From contig CACZQM010000177.1 of assembly GCA_902783285.1 (NCBI GenBank), positions 1 to 38,780 of the forward strand: a stretch of DNA of 38,780 nt, written 5' to 3'. Below are positions 12,646 to 26,146 of this stretch, piece by piece. A program made the translations under genes and the position numbers. Under the pieces are notes generated by a model. That model did not search any database, was not told the origin of the DNA, and worked only from the letters and a program-made list of their open reading frames with translations. Numbering within the stretch: position 1 is the stretch's first letter; every line of letters begins with the position of its first letter. Source of the stretch: an uncultured Desulfovibrio sp. GTDB taxonomy: Bacteria > Desulfobacterota > Desulfovibrionia > Desulfovibrionales > Desulfovibrionaceae.

Positions 12646-13023
12646 GGGGGCGCATTGGTTTCGACGGGGATGCTGGAAGCCATGGCAGCAGGTCGAGGCG
12701 CCGCTGGCCTCGTAAAAAGCGGCAACAAAGTAATTGCCAACAACGATTACGAATACGCCTACGCTGCATAAGCGGGGCAAATTGGCGGCATAAGCGCCGC
12801 CACGCCGGAGCGGATGACGTCCGATAGTCCGCCGAGGCGCCGATCTTTCGGGCTGGCTCGCGTTTGCTCCTGCCGGAGCGCGGGCGAGGATGCACGGTGG
12901 GATAACCGAAGGATGCCCGTCTGCGGGCCCATCCCCAGGCGAAAAGCCAAACGCAGACTAAGCCTGTAGACGCTTTGCGCGGACCTTTCTCGGACGGGAG
13001 TTCAACTCTCCCCGCCTCCACCA
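12646..13023 (+). ncRNA. ssrA: Transfer-messenger RNA (tmRNA)
   Basis: The 5' end GGGGGCG (12646-12652) pairs with CGCCTCC (13013-13019) as a 7-bp acceptor stem with one G-U pair, and ACCA is encoded at 13020-13023. The conserved TGGTTTCGACGGGG lies near the 5' end. The T arm GGGAG-TTCAACT-CTCCC lies near the 3' end. The resume codon GCC at 12736 opens the tag ANNDYEYAYAA, ended by TAA at 12769-12771 (tag codons 12736-12768). The RNA is one-piece, 378 bases. It rescues stalled ribosomes with SmpB and marks products for proteolysis. Confidence 0.97.
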
Positions 13024-16805: not shown

Positions 16806-19800
16806 TCATGACCCTTTGCAGGGCTCCCGCACGCCGAAGGCCAGTGCGTAACCGACGGGGATGACGATGAGCGTCAGCAGCGTGGCTGCAAGAAGGCCGA
16901 AGACGATGGTGGCGGCCATGGCGTCGAAAAACACGTCGAAAAGCAAGGGCAGGATGCCCAGCACAGTGGTCCCGGCAGCCATGGTCACCGGCCTGAGCCT
17001 GCTCACGGAAGCCTCCACCAGCGCCGCATAGGGCGGCCTGCCCTTTTTCCGTTCCAGGCCGATCTGGTCGAGGAGCACGATGGAGTTTTTGAGCAGCATG
17101 CCCGTGAGCCCGAGGAATCCCAGTATGGCCATGAAGCCGAAGGATTTGCCCGTGACCAGCAGTCCGGCGACGACGCCGATGAGCGCGAAGGGTATGGCGC
17201 AGAAGGCCAGGACCGGCTCGCGCAGGGTCCTGAACAGGCTCATGAGCATGAGGAACATGAGCAGCATGAAGAAGGGGAAGGTGGCGCGCACGCCTTCCAG
17301 GGCATCTTCCTTCTGTTCGTATTCCCCGGCCCATTCCATGGTGTAAAGCGGCGGGAGATGGATGGATCCGATCTTCTCTTTGATCTCGTCCCTGAGCTGC
17401 GCGGCGTTGACGCCCCATTCGCTGCACTGCGCGGTGATGGTCGGGATGCGGTCCCTGTGCCAGATCTGCGGTGCCACCCAGACGGTTTCAAAACCGTCTG
17501 TGACGGCCTCCAGGGGCAGGTTCCTGCCGGCGGCGTTCCAGACCTGCACGCTGGACAGCTGGCTGAAGGAGCGTTCTTCCCTGACCGGGCGCGAGATGAT
17601 GGGGATGAGCTCGTCGCCTTCGCGGAAGGCCCCGCAGGCGACGCCGCTGAAGTTCCATTGCAGGGATTGGGCGAGGTCTTTGCGCGTGATGCCCGAGCTG
17701 CGCCCCTTGAGCTCCGAATAGAGGATGCGGCTCGTCTTGACGGGCGGCCGCCAGTCATCGCGTATGTGCCGGGCATGGCCGCTCTGTCGCATGATCTCCT
17801 TGGCCTGCGCGGCCAGCTCCCGCAGGACATCGCTGTCCGGTCCGGAAAAGCGCACCGCCACCTTGGAAGGGATGCAGATGACGTCGCTGAAGCGCAGCAC
17901 CATGGCATCCGCGCTGGGAAAGTTCCTGGCGAGGAACGCTTCGATCTGCGGCGTGAGCGTGTCGATGTCCTCCACGCTGTCCGTCTCCATGACCAGCTGC
18001 CCGTAGTCAGGGGAGGGGCTGGTGACATCGTAGCTGAACAGGAAGCGCAGGCTGCCTGCGCCCACGAACTCCGTCACGTTCCGGATGCCCGGGAGCTTGC
18101 TGACATAGGCGGCTATCTGCCTCACGTCGCCCGCGGTCTCGTCGATGTGGCTGGCGGAGTTGCGCCAGTAATCGATGTAGAATTTCGTCCTGGCGGAATC
18201 GGGGAAGAAGGACTGCGGGACGGACAGGAAGCCTGCGGCAGAGACCGCAAGCGCGGCAAACAGGGCGCCCATGGTCAGGGTGCGGTGGCGCAGGCAGGCC
18301 GCGAGCAGGCACCGGTAGGCCCTGTATACCGCCCCACCGTAGATCTGGCCGGATCCCTGCGGTTGCGGTCTGATGAGGAAGAGGCAGAGCAGGGGCGTGA
18401 AGGTCAGCGCCATGATCCAGCTCAGAAGGAGCGAGATGGCGATGACGGAGAACAGGGACCGGCAGAATTCGCCGACGTTGCCGGTGTTCAGCCCGATGGA
18501 GCCGAAGGCCAGGATGGCGACCAGGGTCGCTCCCAGAAGGGGCCAGGCCGTTTCGCGGGCGATCTCGGAAAGCGCCGCTTCGGGCCGCGCGCCCGCCGCG
18601 GTCTTGACGAGGTATCCGTCAGCGATGACGATGGCGTTGTCGACGAGCATGCCCAGGGCAAGGATGAGCGTGCCCAGCGAGACCATGTGCAGGTCGATGC
18701 CTGCGGCGTGCATGCAGATGAAGGTGCCCAGGATGGTGAGCAGCAGCGTCGCCCCGATGGCTATGCCCGAGCGCAGCCCCATGGTCAGCAGGAGGACGGC
18801 GATGACGATGCCCACGGATTCCACGAGATTGGCCATGAAGGTCTTGATGGAACGCCTGACATCGTCGGACTGGTAGTTGACAAAGCCAACGGTCATGCCC
18901 CCGGGGAGGGAGCTGCGCATTTCTTCCAGCCGCTTCTGGATGGCGTTCCCCAGGGACACGACATTGGCGCCTTCCACGGCGGAGATGCCGATGCCTATGG
19001 CGGGCTCGCCGTTGAAGCGCATGATCTGGCTTGCCGGCTCCGCATGCCCGCGGCTGACCCTGGCGATGTCGCCAAGGCGCAGGAGCGTGCCCGGGCTGCC
19101 CGTGATGATCAGGTCGCGGATGTCGTCCAGGCTGTCTATGGAGCCGGAGACCATGAGGCTGGCATACTCATCCGCTATGTGCACAGATCCTGCGTCCGCC
19201 TGGGCATTGCTGCTTTCCAGCGTCTGGAATATCTGCTGCTGCGTGATGCCGAGCCCGGCCAGCCGGGCGCGGTCGAATTCCACGTAGATGGCCTTTTCCT
19301 GGACGCCCCAGAATTCCACGCGGGCGACGCCGCTGACCAGCAGCAGCTGCTTTTTGATAAGGTCCGCCTGGGCTTTAAGTTCGTCGATGCCGTATCCTTT
19401 GCCGGAGATCGCAAGGAACATGCCATAGACGTCGCCGTAATCATCCCCTACGCGCATGCCTGCGACGCCCGCAGGCAGGCGGGGGCGTATGTCGGCGGTC
19501 TTCCGCCGCAGTTCGTCCCAGATCTGGGGCAGTTCCGCGGAATCGACCTCGGGGCGTATGTAAACGTTGATGAGCGAGAACCCGTTGCGGCTGACCGAGG
19601 TCAGGTAGTCCACCTGGGCCATTTTCTGGATCTCTTCCTCGATCTTCTCGGTCACTTCCCGCTCGACCTGGCGGGAAGCGGCCCCCGGGTACAGCGTCGT
19701 CACCGTGGCCCGTTTTATCTTGAAGGGCGGGCTTTCCAGCTTGCCCATGCCCTGGTAGGAGGCGATGCCCCCCAGGAGCACGGCCAGCATGAGCACCCAA

Positions 19801-19841
19801 AAGAGCGCCTTGTGCTGCAAGGCATATTCAACGATCTTCAT
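16806..19841 (-). CDS. RND-family efflux pump, inner-membrane subunit
   Basis: The 1011-residue protein has the RND layout: an N-terminal helix, a large periplasmic loop, a helix bundle with LILALGMLVDNAIVIAD (proton-relay aspartate), a second helix near residue 525, a second periplasmic loop and a C-terminal bundle with LKNSIVLLDQI (relay lysine). Length fits HAE-1/AcrB-type pumps. The pumps export drugs or other amphiphiles with a periplasmic adaptor and an outer-membrane channel. ATG 19841 was chosen because GGGAG lies upstream and the sequence then starts MKIVEYALQHKALFW, typical of the family. Neither adaptor nor channel gene is adjacent. The substrate is unknown. Confidence 0.93.
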   Translation of the reverse strand: MKIVEYALQHKALFWVLMLAVLLGGIASYQGMGKLESPPFKIKRATVTTLYPGAASRQVEREVTEKIEEEIQKMAQVDYLTSVSRNGFSLINVYIRPEVDSAELPQIWDELRRKTADIRPRLPAGVAGMRVGDDYGDVYGMFLAISGKGYGIDELKAQADLIKKQLLLVSGVARVEFWGVQEKAIYVEFDRARLAGLGITQQQIFQTLESSNAQADAGSVHIADEYASLMVSGSIDSLDDIRDLIITGSPGTLLRLGDIARVSRGHAEPASQIMRFNGEPAIGIGISAVEGANVVSLGNAIQKRLEEMRSSLPGGMTVGFVNYQSDDVRRSIKTFMANLVESVGIVIAVLLLTMGLRSGIAIGATLLLTILGTFICMHAAGIDLHMVSLGTLILALGMLVDNAIVIADGYLVKTAAGARPEAALSEIARETAWPLLGATLVAILAFGSIGLNTGNVGEFCRSLFSVIAISLLLSWIMALTFTPLLCLFLIRPQPQGSGQIYGGAVYRAYRCLLAACLRHRTLTMGALFAALAVSAAGFLSVPQSFFPDSARTKFYIDYWRNSASHIDETAGDVRQIAAYVSKLPGIRNVTEFVGAGSLRFLFSYDVTSPSPDYGQLVMETDSVEDIDTLTPQIEAFLARNFPSADAMVLRFSDVICIPSKVAVRFSGPDSDVLRELAAQAKEIMRQSGHARHIRDDWRPPVKTSRILYSELKGRSSGITRKDLAQSLQWNFSGVACGAFREGDELIPIISRPVREERSFSQLSSVQVWNAAGRNLPLEAVTDGFETVWVAPQIWHRDRIPTITAQCSEWGVNAAQLRDEIKEKIGSIHLPPLYTMEWAGEYEQKEDALEGVRATFPFFMLLMFLMLMSLFRTLREPVLAFCAIPFALIGVVAGLLVTGKSFGFMAILGFLGLTGMLLKNSIVLLDQIGLERKKGRPPYAALVEASVSRLRPVTMAAGTTVLGILPLLFDVFFDAMAATIVFGLLAATLLTLIVIPVGYALAFGVREPCKGS

Positions 19842-20079: not shown

Positions 20080-20424
20080 TCAGGGGAACAGGACGAGCCC
20101 TGCCAGGTAGCTGGCGCCGTTGGTCAGCAACAGCGTTTTGAAGAGCTTTCTGCCATCGGCGTCGAAGACGCAGAGGCAGAGCATCCATTCCAGGCAGACC
20201 ACGGCGGCCTCGCAGCAAAGGGCGAAGGCGCCGCGGTTGCTCTGGTAGGCGCACTGGACGGCAAATCCGTTCAGCAGCAGATTCGTCATGGCATTCACGG
20301 CGGCGAACCACAGCAGCTGGCGGGGGCGCCGGAACCCGCAGGCGAAGAAGAGCGGCGTTTCGATGAGCACGGTGAGGACCATGGGCAGGAACATGCCCGG
20401 CAGCATGGCGGACACCTCAGGCAT
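20080..20424 (-). CDS. Small four-helix membrane protein, third gene of the cassette
   Basis: The 114-residue protein is nearly all hydrophobic, with about four membrane segments. Notable features are two acidic residues within hydrophobic segments (VLIETPLFF and CLEWMLCL), a short basic loop FRRPRQ, and the sequence NAMTNLLLN. ATG 20424 overlaps the stop of the transporter gene by eight bases (ATGCCTGA), so it is translationally coupled. I do not recognise a named family. Buried glutamates and the tight coupling suggest it works in the membrane with the MFS-like protein, perhaps as an accessory subunit; this is inference. Confidence 0.72.
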   Translation of the reverse strand: MPEVSAMLPGMFLPMVLTVLIETPLFFACGFRRPRQLLWFAAVNAMTNLLLNGFAVQCAYQSNRGAFALCCEAAVVCLEWMLCLCVFDADGRKLFKTLLLTNGASYLAGLVLFP

Positions 20425-21448
20425 GGTCTGCCCCGCCGTAGCCCAGGCGTGCCCGTTCCGCCCCTCCATGCCTGGCATAGAGCAGGCCGGCAAGGAAGAG
20501 CAGCATGAACTGCGCCGCCACCATGCCGGGCATGGGGAAGAAAGATCCCTGCCTGAAGAACGCCCCCGGCAGCAGGCATCCGGCGGCCATGCCGGACACC
20601 ATGCCCGGATGCGCCGGGAAGCACCAGTGCGCCAGCCGCAGCGTCAGCGGCATGGTCATGTTGAAGGCGAAGGCCAGCAGCAGGGCGGAAGCCAGACCGC
20701 GCAGCTGCAGCGCCGCAAAGCTGATGAGGAAGACGGCAAGGACGGTGTTCCTGTAGCCGGCCTTGTCGCAGAAAAGCCCGCCCAGGCATTTGCCGGCGGC
20801 AAACACGCAGGCAAAGAGCAGGGCGTGTCCCGCAACGGAGCCGCCCCCGCCGAAGCCGCGCAGGACGACGCCGCCCATGAGCAGCGCCGCGCAGCAGAAC
20901 AAGGGCAGTTGTGGGGCATGGGGCATCCCTGCGGCCGAAGGGTCCGGGGGCATGGCTTCCCCGGGGGCTGCCCGGTGCAGCGCAACGGCGGATCCGGCGG
21001 CGCAGGCTGCGCACGCGGCAAGGAAGGGCAGCGCTGGGACCATGCCGCCCAGTCCCAGGGCAAGCCCCACGGCGCCGCCGGAAACGAAAAGGCCGGGCTC
21101 AAAAAACGCCCCGGACCGGACGAGCACGCATCGCCCGCCGGCAGCATGGAAGACGCAGTTGCCCAGCCCCAGCAGCGCGGCCTGGGCCGCAGGACCGAGG
21201 GCCGGCACGCAGCCCAGCCCCAGCAGGAAGGGGGATGCCGCCAGCGTCCGGACCGTCCATGCGGGGCGCTCGTCCAGGGCCAGCCCTGCCGCCCATTGCC
21301 CGCCGAAGGCGATGGCATTGTACATGGCGAAAAAGAAGGCGGCGCGCTCCCATTGGGGCTCCCGCAGGGCGTAGTCCATCATGGCCGCGGCACAGGTCCC
21401 GTCCACGGCCAGGTGGAAGAGCGTGAGCAGCGCGGCCAGGAGCCTCAT
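20417..21448 (-). CDS. MFS-like polytopic membrane protein, second gene of the cassette
   Basis: The 343-residue protein has roughly ten to eleven membrane segments. It begins MRLLAALLTLFHLAVDG and has conserved-looking polar spots within the membrane: HLAVDGTCAAAM, MYNAIAFGGQ, GLGNCVFHAAGG and LLPGAFFRQG. The first half resembles MFS transporters of the fosmidomycin-resistance sort, but it is shorter than the usual 380-420 residues, so one or two helices may be missing. Its ATG overlaps the stop of the secreted-protein gene (ATGA at 21448-21445) and its end overlaps the next gene. Transport function is likely; substrate is unknown. Confidence 0.72.
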   Translation of the reverse strand: MRLLAALLTLFHLAVDGTCAAAMMDYALREPQWERAAFFFAMYNAIAFGGQWAAGLALDERPAWTVRTLAASPFLLGLGCVPALGPAAQAALLGLGNCVFHAAGGRCVLVRSGAFFEPGLFVSGGAVGLALGLGGMVPALPFLAACAACAAGSAVALHRAAPGEAMPPDPSAAGMPHAPQLPLFCCAALLMGGVVLRGFGGGGSVAGHALLFACVFAAGKCLGGLFCDKAGYRNTVLAVFLISFAALQLRGLASALLLAFAFNMTMPLTLRLAHWCFPAHPGMVSGMAAGCLLPGAFFRQGSFFPMPGMVAAQFMLLFLAGLLYARHGGAERARLGYGGADHA

Positions 21449-22053
21449 TTCGTCCTGGCCGGCCAGGGCTTCAGCCACGTCTCAGGGATGCCGCCGGGAT
21501 CATGGGCGGACTGCCCGCCCACATCTGCGGGGAGCATGGCCCCTCCCTTCTTCTCCAGCACGGCGGAATGGCTGCACTGGAACCTTGGACCCTGCTCATC
21601 TACAAAGAGGTACGCCGTGCTGCCCGCAGGGATCGGCAACGGCCCCTTTTTCCTGACCGTTCCCTTCTGGTAGCGGTGGAGCTTGACCTCGGCATCCAGG
21701 GAGAAGACGGCTTTTTCCCCGTCCGTCAAAGCATCTGCGGGGATGGGGATGAGGAACCTGGAAGCGAGGGGCGCTTCGTTGTGGACGTAGCATCTCCATG
21801 CCTTCACGGGCTCTGTGCGGGCAGACAAGGCCACGCTCATGTTGCACGGGCCCGGGACGGTCACGGTGAAGCAGGGGACGGGCGTCCCCTGGGCATTGGC
21901 GCGGGGGACCATGGCAAAGCCCGGCTCGACGCTGACATCGCTGCTGAAGGGTTCGGCCAGGACATAGCGCGGGGGCGGCGGCAGGAGGTCTGCCGCCGCG
22001 GGCACGGCCGCGGCCATGCAGCATATCGCCATGAGCAAAGAGAAGATCTTCAT
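21445..22053 (-). CDS. Secreted protein of unknown function, first gene of the cassette
   Basis: The 202-residue protein has a clear signal peptide (about 1-21, ending AAAVPAAA) and a mature start DLLPPPPRYVL. The body (about 40-165) looks like a beta-rich domain with FTVTVPGPCNMSVALSA, a WRCYVHN and a FQCSHSAVL segment; three cysteines are in the mature part. No lipobox is present, so it is periplasmic or exported. ATG 22053 follows GGAGGAACG. It is the first gene of three that overlap by 4 and 8 bases, with an MFS-like transporter and a small membrane protein. I do not recognise the family. A periplasmic binding or maturation partner of the transporter is one possibility. Confidence 0.7.
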   Translation of the reverse strand: MKIFSLLMAICCMAAAVPAAADLLPPPPRYVLAEPFSSDVSVEPGFAMVPRANAQGTPVPCFTVTVPGPCNMSVALSARTEPVKAWRCYVHNEAPLASRFLIPIPADALTDGEKAVFSLDAEVKLHRYQKGTVRKKGPLPIPAGSTAYLFVDEQGPRFQCSHSAVLEKKGGAMLPADVGGQSAHDPGGIPETWLKPWPARTK

Positions 22054-22322: not shown

Positions 22323-23609
22323 ATGCTTGATCTCAAGTTGCTGCAGAAGCAGCCGGAAGTGGTCGCCAAGGCCCTTGCCGACCGCCATTCCAGCGTATCC
22401 ATCGAGGAATTTCAGGAACTGGACGCCAGGCGCCGCGCCGCCCTTACGGAAGTGGAAACGCTCAAGGCGCAGCTCAAGAAGGAATCCGGCGACGTCGCCA
22501 GGCTGAAGCGCGCCGGGCAGGACGCCTCCGGACTCGTGGCGAAGCTGGGGCTGCTTTCGGACCGCATCAAGGAGCTCGACCAGAAGGCCGACGACATCAA
22601 GGAGCAGCTTTACCAGTGGATGCTGCGCGTCCCCAACATCCCGGACGCTTCCGTGCCCGTGGGGCTCGACGAGAACGACAACCCCGAGCTGCACCGCTGG
22701 GGGACGCCGCGCGAGTTCGGCTTCGCCCCCAAGCAGCACTTCGAGGTGGGCGCGGCCGCAGCCGGGCTGGACTTCGAACGCGGGGCCAAGCTCGCCGGAT
22801 CGCGCTTCTGCGTTTCGCGCGGCGTGTTCGCGCGGCTGGAACGGGCGCTGATGAATTTCTACCTGGACACGCAGACCACGGAATTCGGGGCCACGGAGAT
22901 CCTGCCCCCGTTCATGGTCAACCGCGCCACCATGCAGGGCACGGGGCAGCTGCCCAAGTTCGAGGAAGACCTCTTTAAAATGCCGGAGTGGGACTACTAC
23001 CTCATCCCCACGGCGGAAGTGCCCGTGACCAACCTGCACGCCGGAGAGATCCTCGAAGAAGACCAGCTGCCGCTGCGCTACACCGCCGGCACGCCCTGCT
23101 TCCGCTCTGAAGCCGGCTCCGCCGGCAAGGACGTGCGCGGGCTGATCCGCCAGCACCAGTTCATCAAGGTGGAGATGGTGCGCTTCGCCCATCCCGGCAA
23201 GTCCTGGGAGGAGCTGGAAAACATGCGCCGTTGCGCGGAGATCCTGCTGGAGAAGCTGGAGCTGCCCTACCGCACGATCACGCTCTGCACCGGCGACATG
23301 GGATTCGGCTCGGCCAAGACCTACGACGTGGAAGTCTGGCTGCCGGGGCAGAACACCTACAGGGAGATCTCTTCCTGCTCCAACTGCGTCGACTTCCAGG
23401 CCCGCCGCGCCAACATACGCTTCCGTCCGAAGGGCGGCGGCAAGCCGGAGTTCGTGCATACGCTCAACGGTTCCGGCCTGCCCACGGGGCGCTCCCTGGT
23501 CGCCGTCATCGAGAATTACCAGCAGGAAGACGGCTCCATCGTCATCCCGGCCGTGCTCCGTCCGTACATGGGCGGGCTGGACGTCATCCGTCCGGATGCG
23601 GTCAGATAG
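22323..23609 (+). CDS. serS: Serine--tRNA ligase
   Basis: The 428-residue class II synthetase has the N-terminal helical arm (about 1-110), which grips the long variable arm of tRNA-Ser, and a catalytic core with [27 protein letters not shown], the motif 2 region [23 protein letters not shown] (shortened here to its key residues R, E and H), and motif 3 [20 protein letters not shown]. It charges tRNA-Ser, and tRNA-Sec where present. ATG 22323 follows AAGGAA, and the sequence then begins MLDLKLLQ as in other SerRS. A hairpin terminator follows. Confidence 0.97.
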
Positions 23610-23633
23610 GGCCTGGCCATCAAGGAAACCACG

Positions 23634-23660
23634 AAGGCGCGGCCATGCCGCGCCTTTCTC
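23634..23660 (+). terminator. Terminator after serS
   Basis: A 10-bp perfect stem AAGGCGCGGC / GCCGCGCCTT with loop CAT is followed by a short TTCTC run. Confidence 0.65.
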
Positions 23661-23818
23661 GTTGGCCATGGCAGGCGGCATCGCCTGCAGGCAAGAGGGA
23701 CCGGATCCGCTCCGCCTGCCGCGCAGATCCCCGGATATGGACAACGCCGGCGTGTTCTGCCATGCTTCCCAAGGATGCGTGCCTGCCTGCACGCCCACCC
23801 GAACGCAAGGAGCGCTGC

Positions 23819-24955
23819 ATGACGCTGCACGACATACCCACCCCATCGGCCATCCTGGACGCGGAGATCTTCGAGCGCAACTGCGAGCGGATGAAGGGCA
23901 AGGCTGCCGGCCTGGGCGTTGCCCTGCGCCCGCACCTCAAGACGGGGAAATGCCTGCAGATGGCCCTGCGCCAGATGACCTCCCCGCAGGGGCCGGCCAC
24001 GGTGTCCACCCTGCGCGAAGCCGAGGTGTTCTTTGCGCACGGCGTGACCGACCTTACCTATGCCGTGGGCATCACCCCGTCCAAGCTGCCCCGGTGCAAG
24101 GCGCTCATCGACGCGGGCTGCAGCCTGAAGGTCATCCTGGACAATGCCGCCGCGGCAAAAGCTGTTTCCGCCTTCTGCACACGGGAGGGCGTGTCCATCC
24201 CCGTGCTCATCGAGATCGACAGCGACGGGCACCGCTCGGGCGTCCCGGCGGGATCCCCCCTGCTGCTGGAAGTCGCTTCCTGCCTTGAAGGCGGGGCGCG
24301 GCTCGCCGGCGTCCTCACCCATGCCGGGGATTCCTACAAGTGCCAGGGCGCAGCATGCTGCATAGCAGCCGCGGAAAACGAGCGCGCCATGGCGGTGCTG
24401 GCTGCGGAAAGGCTGCGTGCCGCGGGATACGCCGTCCCCATCGTCAGCGTGGGCTCCACGCCCACCGCCGTTTTCGCGCGCAGCCTGCAAGGCGTGACCG
24501 AACTGCGCTGCGGCGTGTACGGCACCTTCGACCTCGTCATGGCAGGCATAGGCGCCTGCGGCGTGGAGGACATCGCGCTTTCCCTGCTGGTCGAAGTCAT
24601 CGGGCACCAGCCCGAAAAAGGCTGGATCATCACCGACGGGGGATGGATGGCCCTCTCGCGCGACAGGGGCACGGCTTCGCAGTCCGTGGACCAGGGCTAC
24701 GGACTCGTCTGCGATATCGACGGCAAGCTCCTGGACGGGCTCATCGTCACGGCAGCCAACCAGGAGCACGGCATCATCGCCCGGCGGGACGGCGGGGCGG
24801 CGGACATCTCCCGCTTCCCCGTGGGCTCACGCCTGCGCATCCTGCCCAACCACGCCTGCGCCATGGGCGCCCAGCATCCCTTCTACCGCGTCGTCCGCCT
24901 GGGCGTCGAGGTCGTGGACACATGGGAGCGCTTTGGCGGCTGGTACGAATGTTAG
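23819..24955 (+). CDS. D-threonine aldolase / D-serine dehydratase-like PLP enzyme
   Basis: The 378-residue protein has the fold-type III alanine-racemase-like barrel: TPSAILDAEIFERNCERM, then RPHLKTGKC with the PLP lysine (Lys41), VLIEIDSDGHRSG, LTHAGDSY and VGSTPT for phosphate binding. A C-terminal beta domain ends with LPNHACAMG, where the His and Cys bind the metal of D-serine dehydratases. The family splits D-3-hydroxy amino acids (D-threonine aldolase) or deaminates D-serine. ATG 23819 follows AAGGAG. The next gene is a RidA family member starting 11 bases later, which removes reactive enamines of the kind made by serine dehydratases; that favours a dehydratase. The choice between the two activities remains open. 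Confidence 0.8.
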   Translation: MTLHDIPTPSAILDAEIFERNCERMKGKAAGLGVALRPHLKTGKCLQMALRQMTSPQGPATVSTLREAEVFFAHGVTDLTYAVGITPSKLPRCKALIDAGCSLKVILDNAAAAKAVSAFCTREGVSIPVLIEIDSDGHRSGVPAGSPLLLEVASCLEGGARLAGVLTHAGDSYKCQGAACCIAAAENERAMAVLAAERLRAAGYAVPIVSVGSTPTAVFARSLQGVTELRCGVYGTFDLVMAGIGACGVEDIALSLLVEVIGHQPEKGWIITDGGWMALSRDRGTASQSVDQGYGLVCDIDGKLLDGLIVTAANQEHGIIARRDGGAADISRFPVGSRLRILPNHACAMGAQHPFYRVVRLGVEVVDTWERFGGWYEC

Positions 24956-24966
24956 GAGGACACCCC

Positions 24967-25347
24967 ATGCGGACGTTCATCGCTCCGGACGCGCCCGCGC
25001 CCAACGGTCATTACAGCCATGCCGTCGTCTTCAACGGCGCAGCCTGGCTTTCCGGCATCCTGCCCAACGCGGTCGCACCCGGCGCTCCGCTCGAAGAACA
25101 GTTCGATGCGGTGTTCCGCACCATACGGACCATCCTTGCCGGCTGCGGGACGGACCTTTCGCGGACGGTGCTGTGCAGGATCTACATCGCCGACCTGGAC
25201 GACTGGCCGGAGGTCAACAGGCTGTACGCCGATGTTTTTGGAGAACACAGGCCGGCGCGCGTCGTCGTGCCCGTCAAGGAGCTGCATTTCGGCTACAGGC
25301 TGGAAGTCGAGCTCATGGCGGAGGCAGGGGAAGGACGCGCGCGGTGA
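24967..25347 (+). CDS. RidA-family (YjgF/YER057c) protein
   Basis: The 126-residue protein has the RidA pattern GHYSHAVVFNGAAWLSGILP, LEEQFDAVFRTI, LCRIYIADLDDWPEVNRLY and PARVVVPVKEL, where the Arg of PAR corresponds to the substrate-binding arginine. RidA proteins form cytosolic trimers and hydrolyse enamine/imine intermediates such as 2-aminoacrylate. The ribosome binding site AGGAGG overlaps the stop codon of the upstream PLP enzyme gene, so the two are clearly one operon. Together they suggest a D-amino-acid dehydration step with its own enamine clean-up. Confidence 0.88.
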   Translation: MRTFIAPDAPAPNGHYSHAVVFNGAAWLSGILPNAVAPGAPLEEQFDAVFRTIRTILAGCGTDLSRTVLCRIYIADLDDWPEVNRLYADVFGEHRPARVVVPVKELHFGYRLEVELMAEAGEGRAR

Positions 25348-25411: not shown

Positions 25412-26146
25412 TTATCCTTCCGCCGCTGCGCTCTGGCTTGCAAGGGCGGTGGAGAACTCCGCCAGCTTTTCCTGGTCCCAGAAGGCCACGGCGCGCAGTG
25501 GGGCCGCGAGGACGGCATTGCCCGGTGCCTTGCCAAAAAAGAGGAGGACCACGTCCCACGGCTCATAGATCTTGCCGCGGCCGTCTTCCGCGCCCGTGCG
25601 GGCCAGTGCAAAGGCAAAATGGGGGAAGCCTTCCGTGCCTGTGGCGAAAAGTTCGGACGCGAGCGCGAAGTCGCCGAAGCTGCCGTGCTTTTCCGCGAGC
25701 TTTTTAAAGACGCCCTCCATGTCTTCAGGAGCATAGGGCGGGGTCAGTTCGCGGAGTTCCGGCGTATAGGGCTGGATGAAGAGCTGCGCGTTGTGCTGCA
25801 TGGTCCAGGGACCGCCCAGGGGGGCATCCTTCAGCGAGCGCATCTCTGCGCTGGCGATGACGGAACGCATGCCTTTGTCCGTCTCGAAGAGGGATTCGGG
25901 AAAGGCGGCGACGGTGCAGTTCGAGCCTTCCTGCCTGAGGAAGGCAAGGACCCTGGCGCCGGGCTCGAACTTGCCCGGGATGCCCTTTTTGACGATGCAC
26001 TTCGCCGCGAGGGGGCACCGCCCCCAGAGGCTGCGCTTCGGGCGTTCCAGCAGGGAATAGGGGCCGATGTCCCCGTAAAAGGCGGTGATCTCATCCACAG
26101 AAAATTCTTCGCCGGGCTTTGCGTTTTCCCAACCGGTGAAAGCCAT
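25412..26146 (-). CDS. Conserved-looking protein of unknown function
   Basis: The 244-residue protein (ATG 26146 after GAGGAGCG) has no signal peptide or membrane segment. I recognise no domain. Visible features are an aromatic-rich N-terminus (VDEITAFYGDIGPYSLL), a WGRCPLAAKC pair of cysteines, and IYEPWDVVLLFFGKAP in the last third. The composition is that of a normal soluble protein, and the start and ribosome binding site are good, so the gene looks real. It lies 73 bases behind the TauE/SafE gene on the same strand and may share its transcript. Confidence 0.65.
   Translation of the reverse strand: MAFTGWENAKPGEEFSVDEITAFYGDIGPYSLLERPKRSLWGRCPLAAKCIVKKGIPGKFEPGARVLAFLRQEGSNCTVAAFPESLFETDKGMRSVIASAEMRSLKDAPLGGPWTMQHNAQLFIQPYTPELRELTPPYAPEDMEGVFKKLAEKHGSFGDFALASELFATGTEGFPHFAFALARTGAEDGRGKIYEPWDVVLLFFGKAPGNAVLAAPLRAVAFWDQEKLAEFSTALASQSAAAEG

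Follow-up and report, generated by a model that had tools for sequence, protein, structure and literature searches.

Genes A, B and C lie together on the minus strand of the window, by which we mean the whole 38,780-nucleotide stretch that was analysed, and their coordinates agree with those of a preliminary description of this DNA. The features of the locus are as follows.

21445..22053, minus strand: gene A, encoding a predicted exported protein of 202 amino acids that has a hypervariable body and whose homologues precede B in other genomes
21991..22053, minus strand: signal peptide of A (residues 1-21), read from the sequence, ending at a predicted cleavage site
21970..21990, minus strand: mature N-terminus of A (DLLPPPP), a conserved start at the predicted cleavage site
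21445..21448, minus strand: stop/start overlap of A and B (ATGA, 4 bases)
20417..21448, minus strand: gene B, encoding a predicted MFS-type 12-helix carrier of 343 amino acids (AlphaFold2, Foldseek and profile-profile comparison)
20417..20424, minus strand: overlap of the B stop and the C start (8 bases)
20080..20424, minus strand: gene C, encoding a predicted four-helix membrane protein of 114 amino acids (AlphaFold2 and conservation over 34 sequences)

Both overlaps, of 4 and 8 bases, had been noted in the preliminary description and are present. The divergent gene upstream of the trio is serS. A simple scan found no sigma-70-like promoter for A-B-C, and terminator-like sites near the trio are no more frequent than expected by chance. 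About 240 bases past C, on the same strand, lies a gene for an RND efflux permease (window 16806-19841; Pfam ACR_tran, E 9.9e-148). The host's draft genome (1.9 Mb, 206 contigs) contains a single copy of B.

By profile comparison and predicted fold, B belongs to the MFS superfamily. Its AlphaFold2 model has 12 helices (pLDDT 83, pTM 0.84), and the top Foldseek matches of this model are MFS carriers (78 at E<=1e-3, best 2.9e-6). Profile alignment by hhalign placed B with five MFS_1-type carriers (L057, L044, L043, L071 and L058) at a probability of 97.9 and E 5e-13; a Pfam scan of three of these carriers matched MFS_1 in every case, at 4e-36 or better. None of 29 B members matches an MFS model or any other Pfam or NCBIfam model at E<=0.01, and no sequence match to B was found among solved structures. 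Like MFS_1-type carriers, B has 12 helices in an MFS fold, a conserved His and Asp in helix 1, an FH pair in helix 4 and a motif-A-like GG...D..G after helix 8. Unlike them, it falls below detection by the Pfam and NCBIfam MFS models, is about 40-60 amino acids shorter and travels with A and C. MFS carriers are generally taken to work alone. B had been described as a shortened MFS-like protein with the polar motifs HLAVDG and FHAAGG. The motifs and the MFS likeness hold up, but the label "shortened" does not, as the loops are short and all 12 helices are present in the model. Across 29 sequences, the polar residues that never vary are His12, Asp16, Cys19, Tyr43, Gln51, Asp59, Asn97, His101, Arg197, Lys220, Asp228 and Thr269. 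Judging from the helices that carry them (1, 4 and 7), His12, Asp16, Asn97, His101 and Arg197 probably lie near or face the central cavity.

The AlphaFold2 model of C (pLDDT 85.5) consists of helices at residues 2-28, 34-57, 64-86 and 91-112. Invariant over 34 sequences are Glu22, Gly30, Glu72, Glu79, Asn102, Ser105 and Gly109; the three glutamates fall within predicted helices, consistent with the earlier remark that C carries buried glutamates. Under the positive-inside rule, basic loops lie on the cytoplasmic side. Because loops 1 and 3 of C are basic, both termini are predicted to be outside, and the conserved basic loop GYRR would be cytoplasmic. No known family or sequence relative of C was found in Pfam, NCBIfam, PADLOC or PHROGs, and Foldseek returned no known fold at E<=1e-3. 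The best match of a second structural comparison, to the membrane part of WbaP (Z 9.0; rmsd 3.7, 106 residues aligned), falls short of the caution threshold that the tool sets for helical bundles. A CLN6 Pfam match in 3 of the 34 members (best E 5e-4) is weak and was taken as chance.

A first scan of genome contigs with B yielded 12 loci; they belong to Desulfovibrionaceae, Selenomonadales/Schwartzia and Synergistaceae, and the titles mark many as drafts from rumen or gut. At E<=1e-3, the B profile matched in 25 of 300 Selenomonadales-class, 13 of 288 Desulfovibrionaceae and 12 of 180 Synergistaceae-class genomes, a few of these being weak MFS matches. Gene order was examined in 47 non-redundant loci with a B score >200, from which 13 repeat loci had been removed beforehand; they come from Desulfovibrionaceae, Negativicutes and Synergistia. 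Four of them stop at the edge of a contig; in 36 of the 43 that could be evaluated, the gene immediately downstream of B is C. The remaining seven form one Negativicutes group in which a CcdA-thioredoxin gene follows B, and C is located elsewhere in the genome in six of those seven. On the other side, an exported ORF directly precedes B in 40 of 46 loci with a readable 5' side. L006 has an A fragment at this position, and nothing exported was found upstream of B in L003, L004, L029, L052 and L040. An A fragment does lie past C in L040; in the remaining four (4 of 46 loci) an exported neighbour was found on neither side. In L004 the signal finder had flagged an ORF upstream of B, which was discarded as false.

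The presence of C follows that of B. Of 288 Desulfovibrionaceae genomes, 10 contain C, and each of these 10 has B; in an eleventh genome with B (G374) the gene is cut at a contig end (Fisher p 1.2e-17, a statistic uncorrected for kinship). B and C distances are correlated with r 0.82 over 22 loci, a value reached by none of 2000 within-group shuffles, and with r 0.91 over 24 when two distant loci are added. Such a correlation is expected of partners, and of shared descent too. At the level of sequence, A-B-C is a conserved and co-inherited unit, with part of the co-inheritance in related genomes being kinship. The preliminary description had inferred equal dosage from the tight coupling. Equal dosage cannot be derived in this way, given an A-B spacing that ranges from -8 to +206 nt over 30 resolved loci, the presence of two or three A genes beside some B-C pairs and the detachment of C in one Negativicutes group.

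These surveys bear on whether the trio is a unit at all. Linkage by descent only, with three independent genes in one travelling operon, would fit the origin of many loci in few genera, the detached C and the four loci that lack A. We regard it as very unlikely, since the trio adjoins in three phyla, since C is kept where it is detached and B and C match in presence, and since no neighbour gene other than the trio recurs across groups. The preliminary description had named a lack of adjacency in other genomes as grounds for rejecting its proposal, and the proposal withstood this check. A link to the RND pump or to CcdA was rejected because the former follows C in the window, the latter follows B in the one Negativicutes group, and neither recurs across groups. 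A phage, plasmid or defence origin was also rejected, as searches of plasmids, viral contigs, PADLOC and PHROGs gave no match. Horizontal transfer was considered and dropped: B is absent from all 18 other genomes of the window's genus that were searched and is patchy in the family, but the B tree fails to resolve the window.

Export of A, as first proposed, is supported by a signal peptide, MKIFSLLMAICCMAAAVPAAA, read from the sequence and predicted to be cleaved just before DLLPPPP. Of the 40 exported proteins directly upstream of B, 39 have D-[V/I/L/M/A] where cleavage is predicted. This count is position-defined, which frees it of profile bias, but it includes close relatives (the 40 parsed proteins form 25 clusters at 50% identity). 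A Pro follows at mature positions 3-7 in 38 of 40 A proteins parsed by script. As a control, [AG]D[VILMAT] occurs near the predicted site in 5 of 140 ORFs, a rough figure that depends on a crude home-made signal-peptide finder and greedily chosen ORFs. In all, 47 exported proteins were gathered, many through a profile that contains the motif column. Forty were parsed by script, and the motif is visible by eye in six of those outside the parse; loci missed by the script in which A was read by eye include L002, L007, L008, L037, L038, L061, L063, L066 and L072. The exported protein upstream of B in L041 lacks the motif.

The body of A is poorly conserved. In the first set of loci, BLAST gave the window's A a single, weak match, with 31% identity over 74 residues; identity over that set was 46-57% for B and 34-45% for C. 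Bodies were compared by profile (hhalign) after removal of the first 14 mature residues. Across Desulfovibrionaceae, Negativicutes and Synergistia these trimmed bodies still match (best E 1e-15), with E 1.4e-9 between the Desulfovibrionaceae and Selenomonadales sets and 2.5e-13 between the Selenomonadales and Synergistia sets; matches for other pairs are weaker, and one small Negativicutes set aligns poorly with three of the other four A sets. Since the bodies match across phyla, A constitutes one family in these three groups, in which the predicted mature N-terminus is the constant part while the body diverges. Mature A is about 123-190 amino acids long. No solute-binding Pfam match was found for the window's A or five other A proteins, and an HmuY match of one A (E 0.014, under its cut-off) was taken as chance. 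Tandem A genes precede a single B-C pair in three loci (three genes in L061, two in L002 and two in L063), and within each tandem the mature start is the same and the bodies differ. At a contig end, L067:1030-1767 holds A and the start of B in one open frame without a stop, which is either a draft error or a real fusion.

A tag placed exactly at the predicted cleavage site, attached to varying bodies and shared by tandem A genes, is also what might be expected if A were cargo, with its mature N-terminus as a sorting tag and B-C anchoring, processing or moving A after Sec export. We consider this unlikely. B keeps carrier-like motif residues (Asp59 and Asp228) as well as the residues on the cavity helices, and MFS carriers are not known to move folded proteins, which counts against such a role. 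Relatives of C in Bacillota bear on the same question from both sides.

When 398 Bacillota genomes were searched with the C profile, 23 matched, one of which is the query's own source. In 19, the C domain makes up the C-terminal half of a longer protein that has a signal peptide and an N-terminal ectodomain; three other C domains adjoin a B relative (L076, L094 and L095), and one further B-C pair was seen by eye in L147. The fused domains are related to C by profile comparison (E 1.5e-17), and these distant relatives keep the Glu, Asn and Ser/Gly positions. In contrast to A-B-C, the fused proteins are single polypeptides in genomes without a clear B (the B profile matches in 3 of the 19, always weakly and partially), and their ectodomains, of both types, have no detectable homology to A bodies (hhalign E 0.1-0.9). 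The fusions were for this reason dropped as a Rosetta stone for A. The ectodomains begin NSAEPPS or DxGPKPS. Two types, from L079 and L088-L093 and from L074, L075, L077, L078 and L080-L087, are found fused to the C domain in these Bacillota without Omp85; no kinship between the types was detected, and six examples gave no Pfam or NCBIfam name.

Permanent fusion of an ectodomain to C is not what a cargo role for A would suggest, with the reservation that the ectodomain is no detectable homologue of A. Pointing the other way, in L094 (order B-C-A) and L076 (order B-C-A') the exported protein downstream again starts ADT or ADV. That of L094 (L094:589-1425, minus strand) follows B and C, starts ADTLEVPDNDFFYRHS and has a C-terminal membrane anchor; it is of a type that we take to be common and unnamed in Clostridia.

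The existence of ectodomain-C fusions without a clear B, together with the GYRR loop, also fits a role in signalling, in which A-C would be an extracytoplasmic sensor regulating B, or B-C a non-transporting receptor complex read by other proteins. Such a role seems improbable, given that no kinase, regulator or other family recurs beside the unit across groups and that B retains its carrier-like conserved residues.

Omp85 was found in 13 of 13 tested genomes with a free A, in none of the 19 with fused ectodomains and in none of four other Bacillota with B and C; put by group, it is present in all 16 tested genomes of the other three groups, including three distant Synergistia, and in 0 of 23 Bacillota. 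A rule that A is free in two-membrane and tethered in one-membrane cells was rejected as only suggestive, because the split follows phylogeny and two loci of the distant Synergistia (L069 and L070), which encode short membrane-anchored A-like proteins, run counter to it.

The composition of the unit recalls the TRAP (DctPQM) and TTT (TctCBA) transporters, which likewise combine an exported, a four-helix and a 12-helix protein in one operon (PMC5812351). A further likeness is that the 12-helix protein, here B, is the best conserved of the three. The differences are that the large subunit has an MFS fold, with MFS carriers as its fold matches, that A is small and hypervariable and that the gene order is not the same. 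No DctM or TctA Pfam match was found for B (the window's B and 29 members), and no DctQ or TctB match for C (the window's C and 34 members). Given the MFS fold and the lack of TRAP or TTT family matches, A-B-C may work like these systems without being one of them. In group II ECF transporters, exchangeable subunits share one membrane engine. A-B-C may resemble them in that several exchangeable subunits could share one engine through a common short docking motif; it differs in having no ATPase and in that the exchangeable part is exported rather than a membrane protein.

Taken together, we favor the reading that A, B and C act as a single functional unit. Its likeliest form is a secondary transporter in three parts, with an MFS carrier as its base and A docking through its N-terminus; we put the probability of this reading at roughly 45%. 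B would move a small polar solute by means of the proton gradient, in the direction of either uptake or export, with the five residues named above near its central cavity. C would sit beside B with its N- and C-termini outside, linking B to A, and A would use about ten residues at its mature start to dock onto B-C from outside. Docking of this kind would allow different A bodies to be used with one membrane pair. The reading draws on the conserved gene order across phyla on both sides of B, on the co-occurrence, tracking distances and retention of B and C, on the assignment of B to the MFS by fold and profile, on the several A genes that can accompany one B-C pair and on the TRAP/TTT-like composition. 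The position of the Bacillota ectodomains at the N-terminus of C also fits a C with its N-terminus outside and a partner there.

Several observations argue against a three-part transporter. Genomes with fused ectodomains and no clear B suggest that C can act without B, and those ectodomains, not being detectable homologues of A, offer no direct Rosetta stone. The loci without an exported neighbour and the motif-less upstream protein of L041 are exceptions to the pattern. The body of A is far less conserved than B, which is unusual for a specific substrate binder. In addition, mature A is smaller than the solute-binding proteins of TRAP and TTT systems, and co-inheritance is partly kinship. A bolder version, which we think rather unlikely, would make A-B-C a third type of tripartite secondary transporter with no relation to TRAP or TTT. 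Exported proteins bearing a short D-V-x-x-P address would then be interchangeable and plug into an MFS carrier via a new four-helix subunit, so that one membrane engine serves several partners.

The trio had been put forward as an undescribed system forming a transport machine with a periplasmic partner. What stands is a co-inherited unit of an exported, an MFS and a four-helix protein for which we found neither a family (Pfam, NCBIfam, PADLOC and PHROGs) nor a paper in open-access searches, the latter being weak evidence of absence from print. If the three-part reading is true, tripartite design would have another chassis, a widespread MFS carrier that comes with its own four-helix subunit and exported partner. 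A testable function would then be available for three protein families without names, among them a C domain that is also fused to unrelated ectodomains. The motif at the mature N-terminus offers an easy way to look for partners by sequence and to test docking.

Other features of the window were noted in passing. Downstream of serS, overlapping frames on the plus strand (23231-24955 and 24340-25347) encode a protein with an alanine-racemase-N/D-serine-dehydratase domain and a RidA-family (L-PSP) protein. Between the RidA gene and a TauE/SafE transporter gene, a 244-amino-acid open frame on the minus strand (25412-26146) has no Pfam match at E<=1e-5. A tmRNA gene at 12646-13023 (plus strand) encodes the tag peptide ANNDYEYAYAA.
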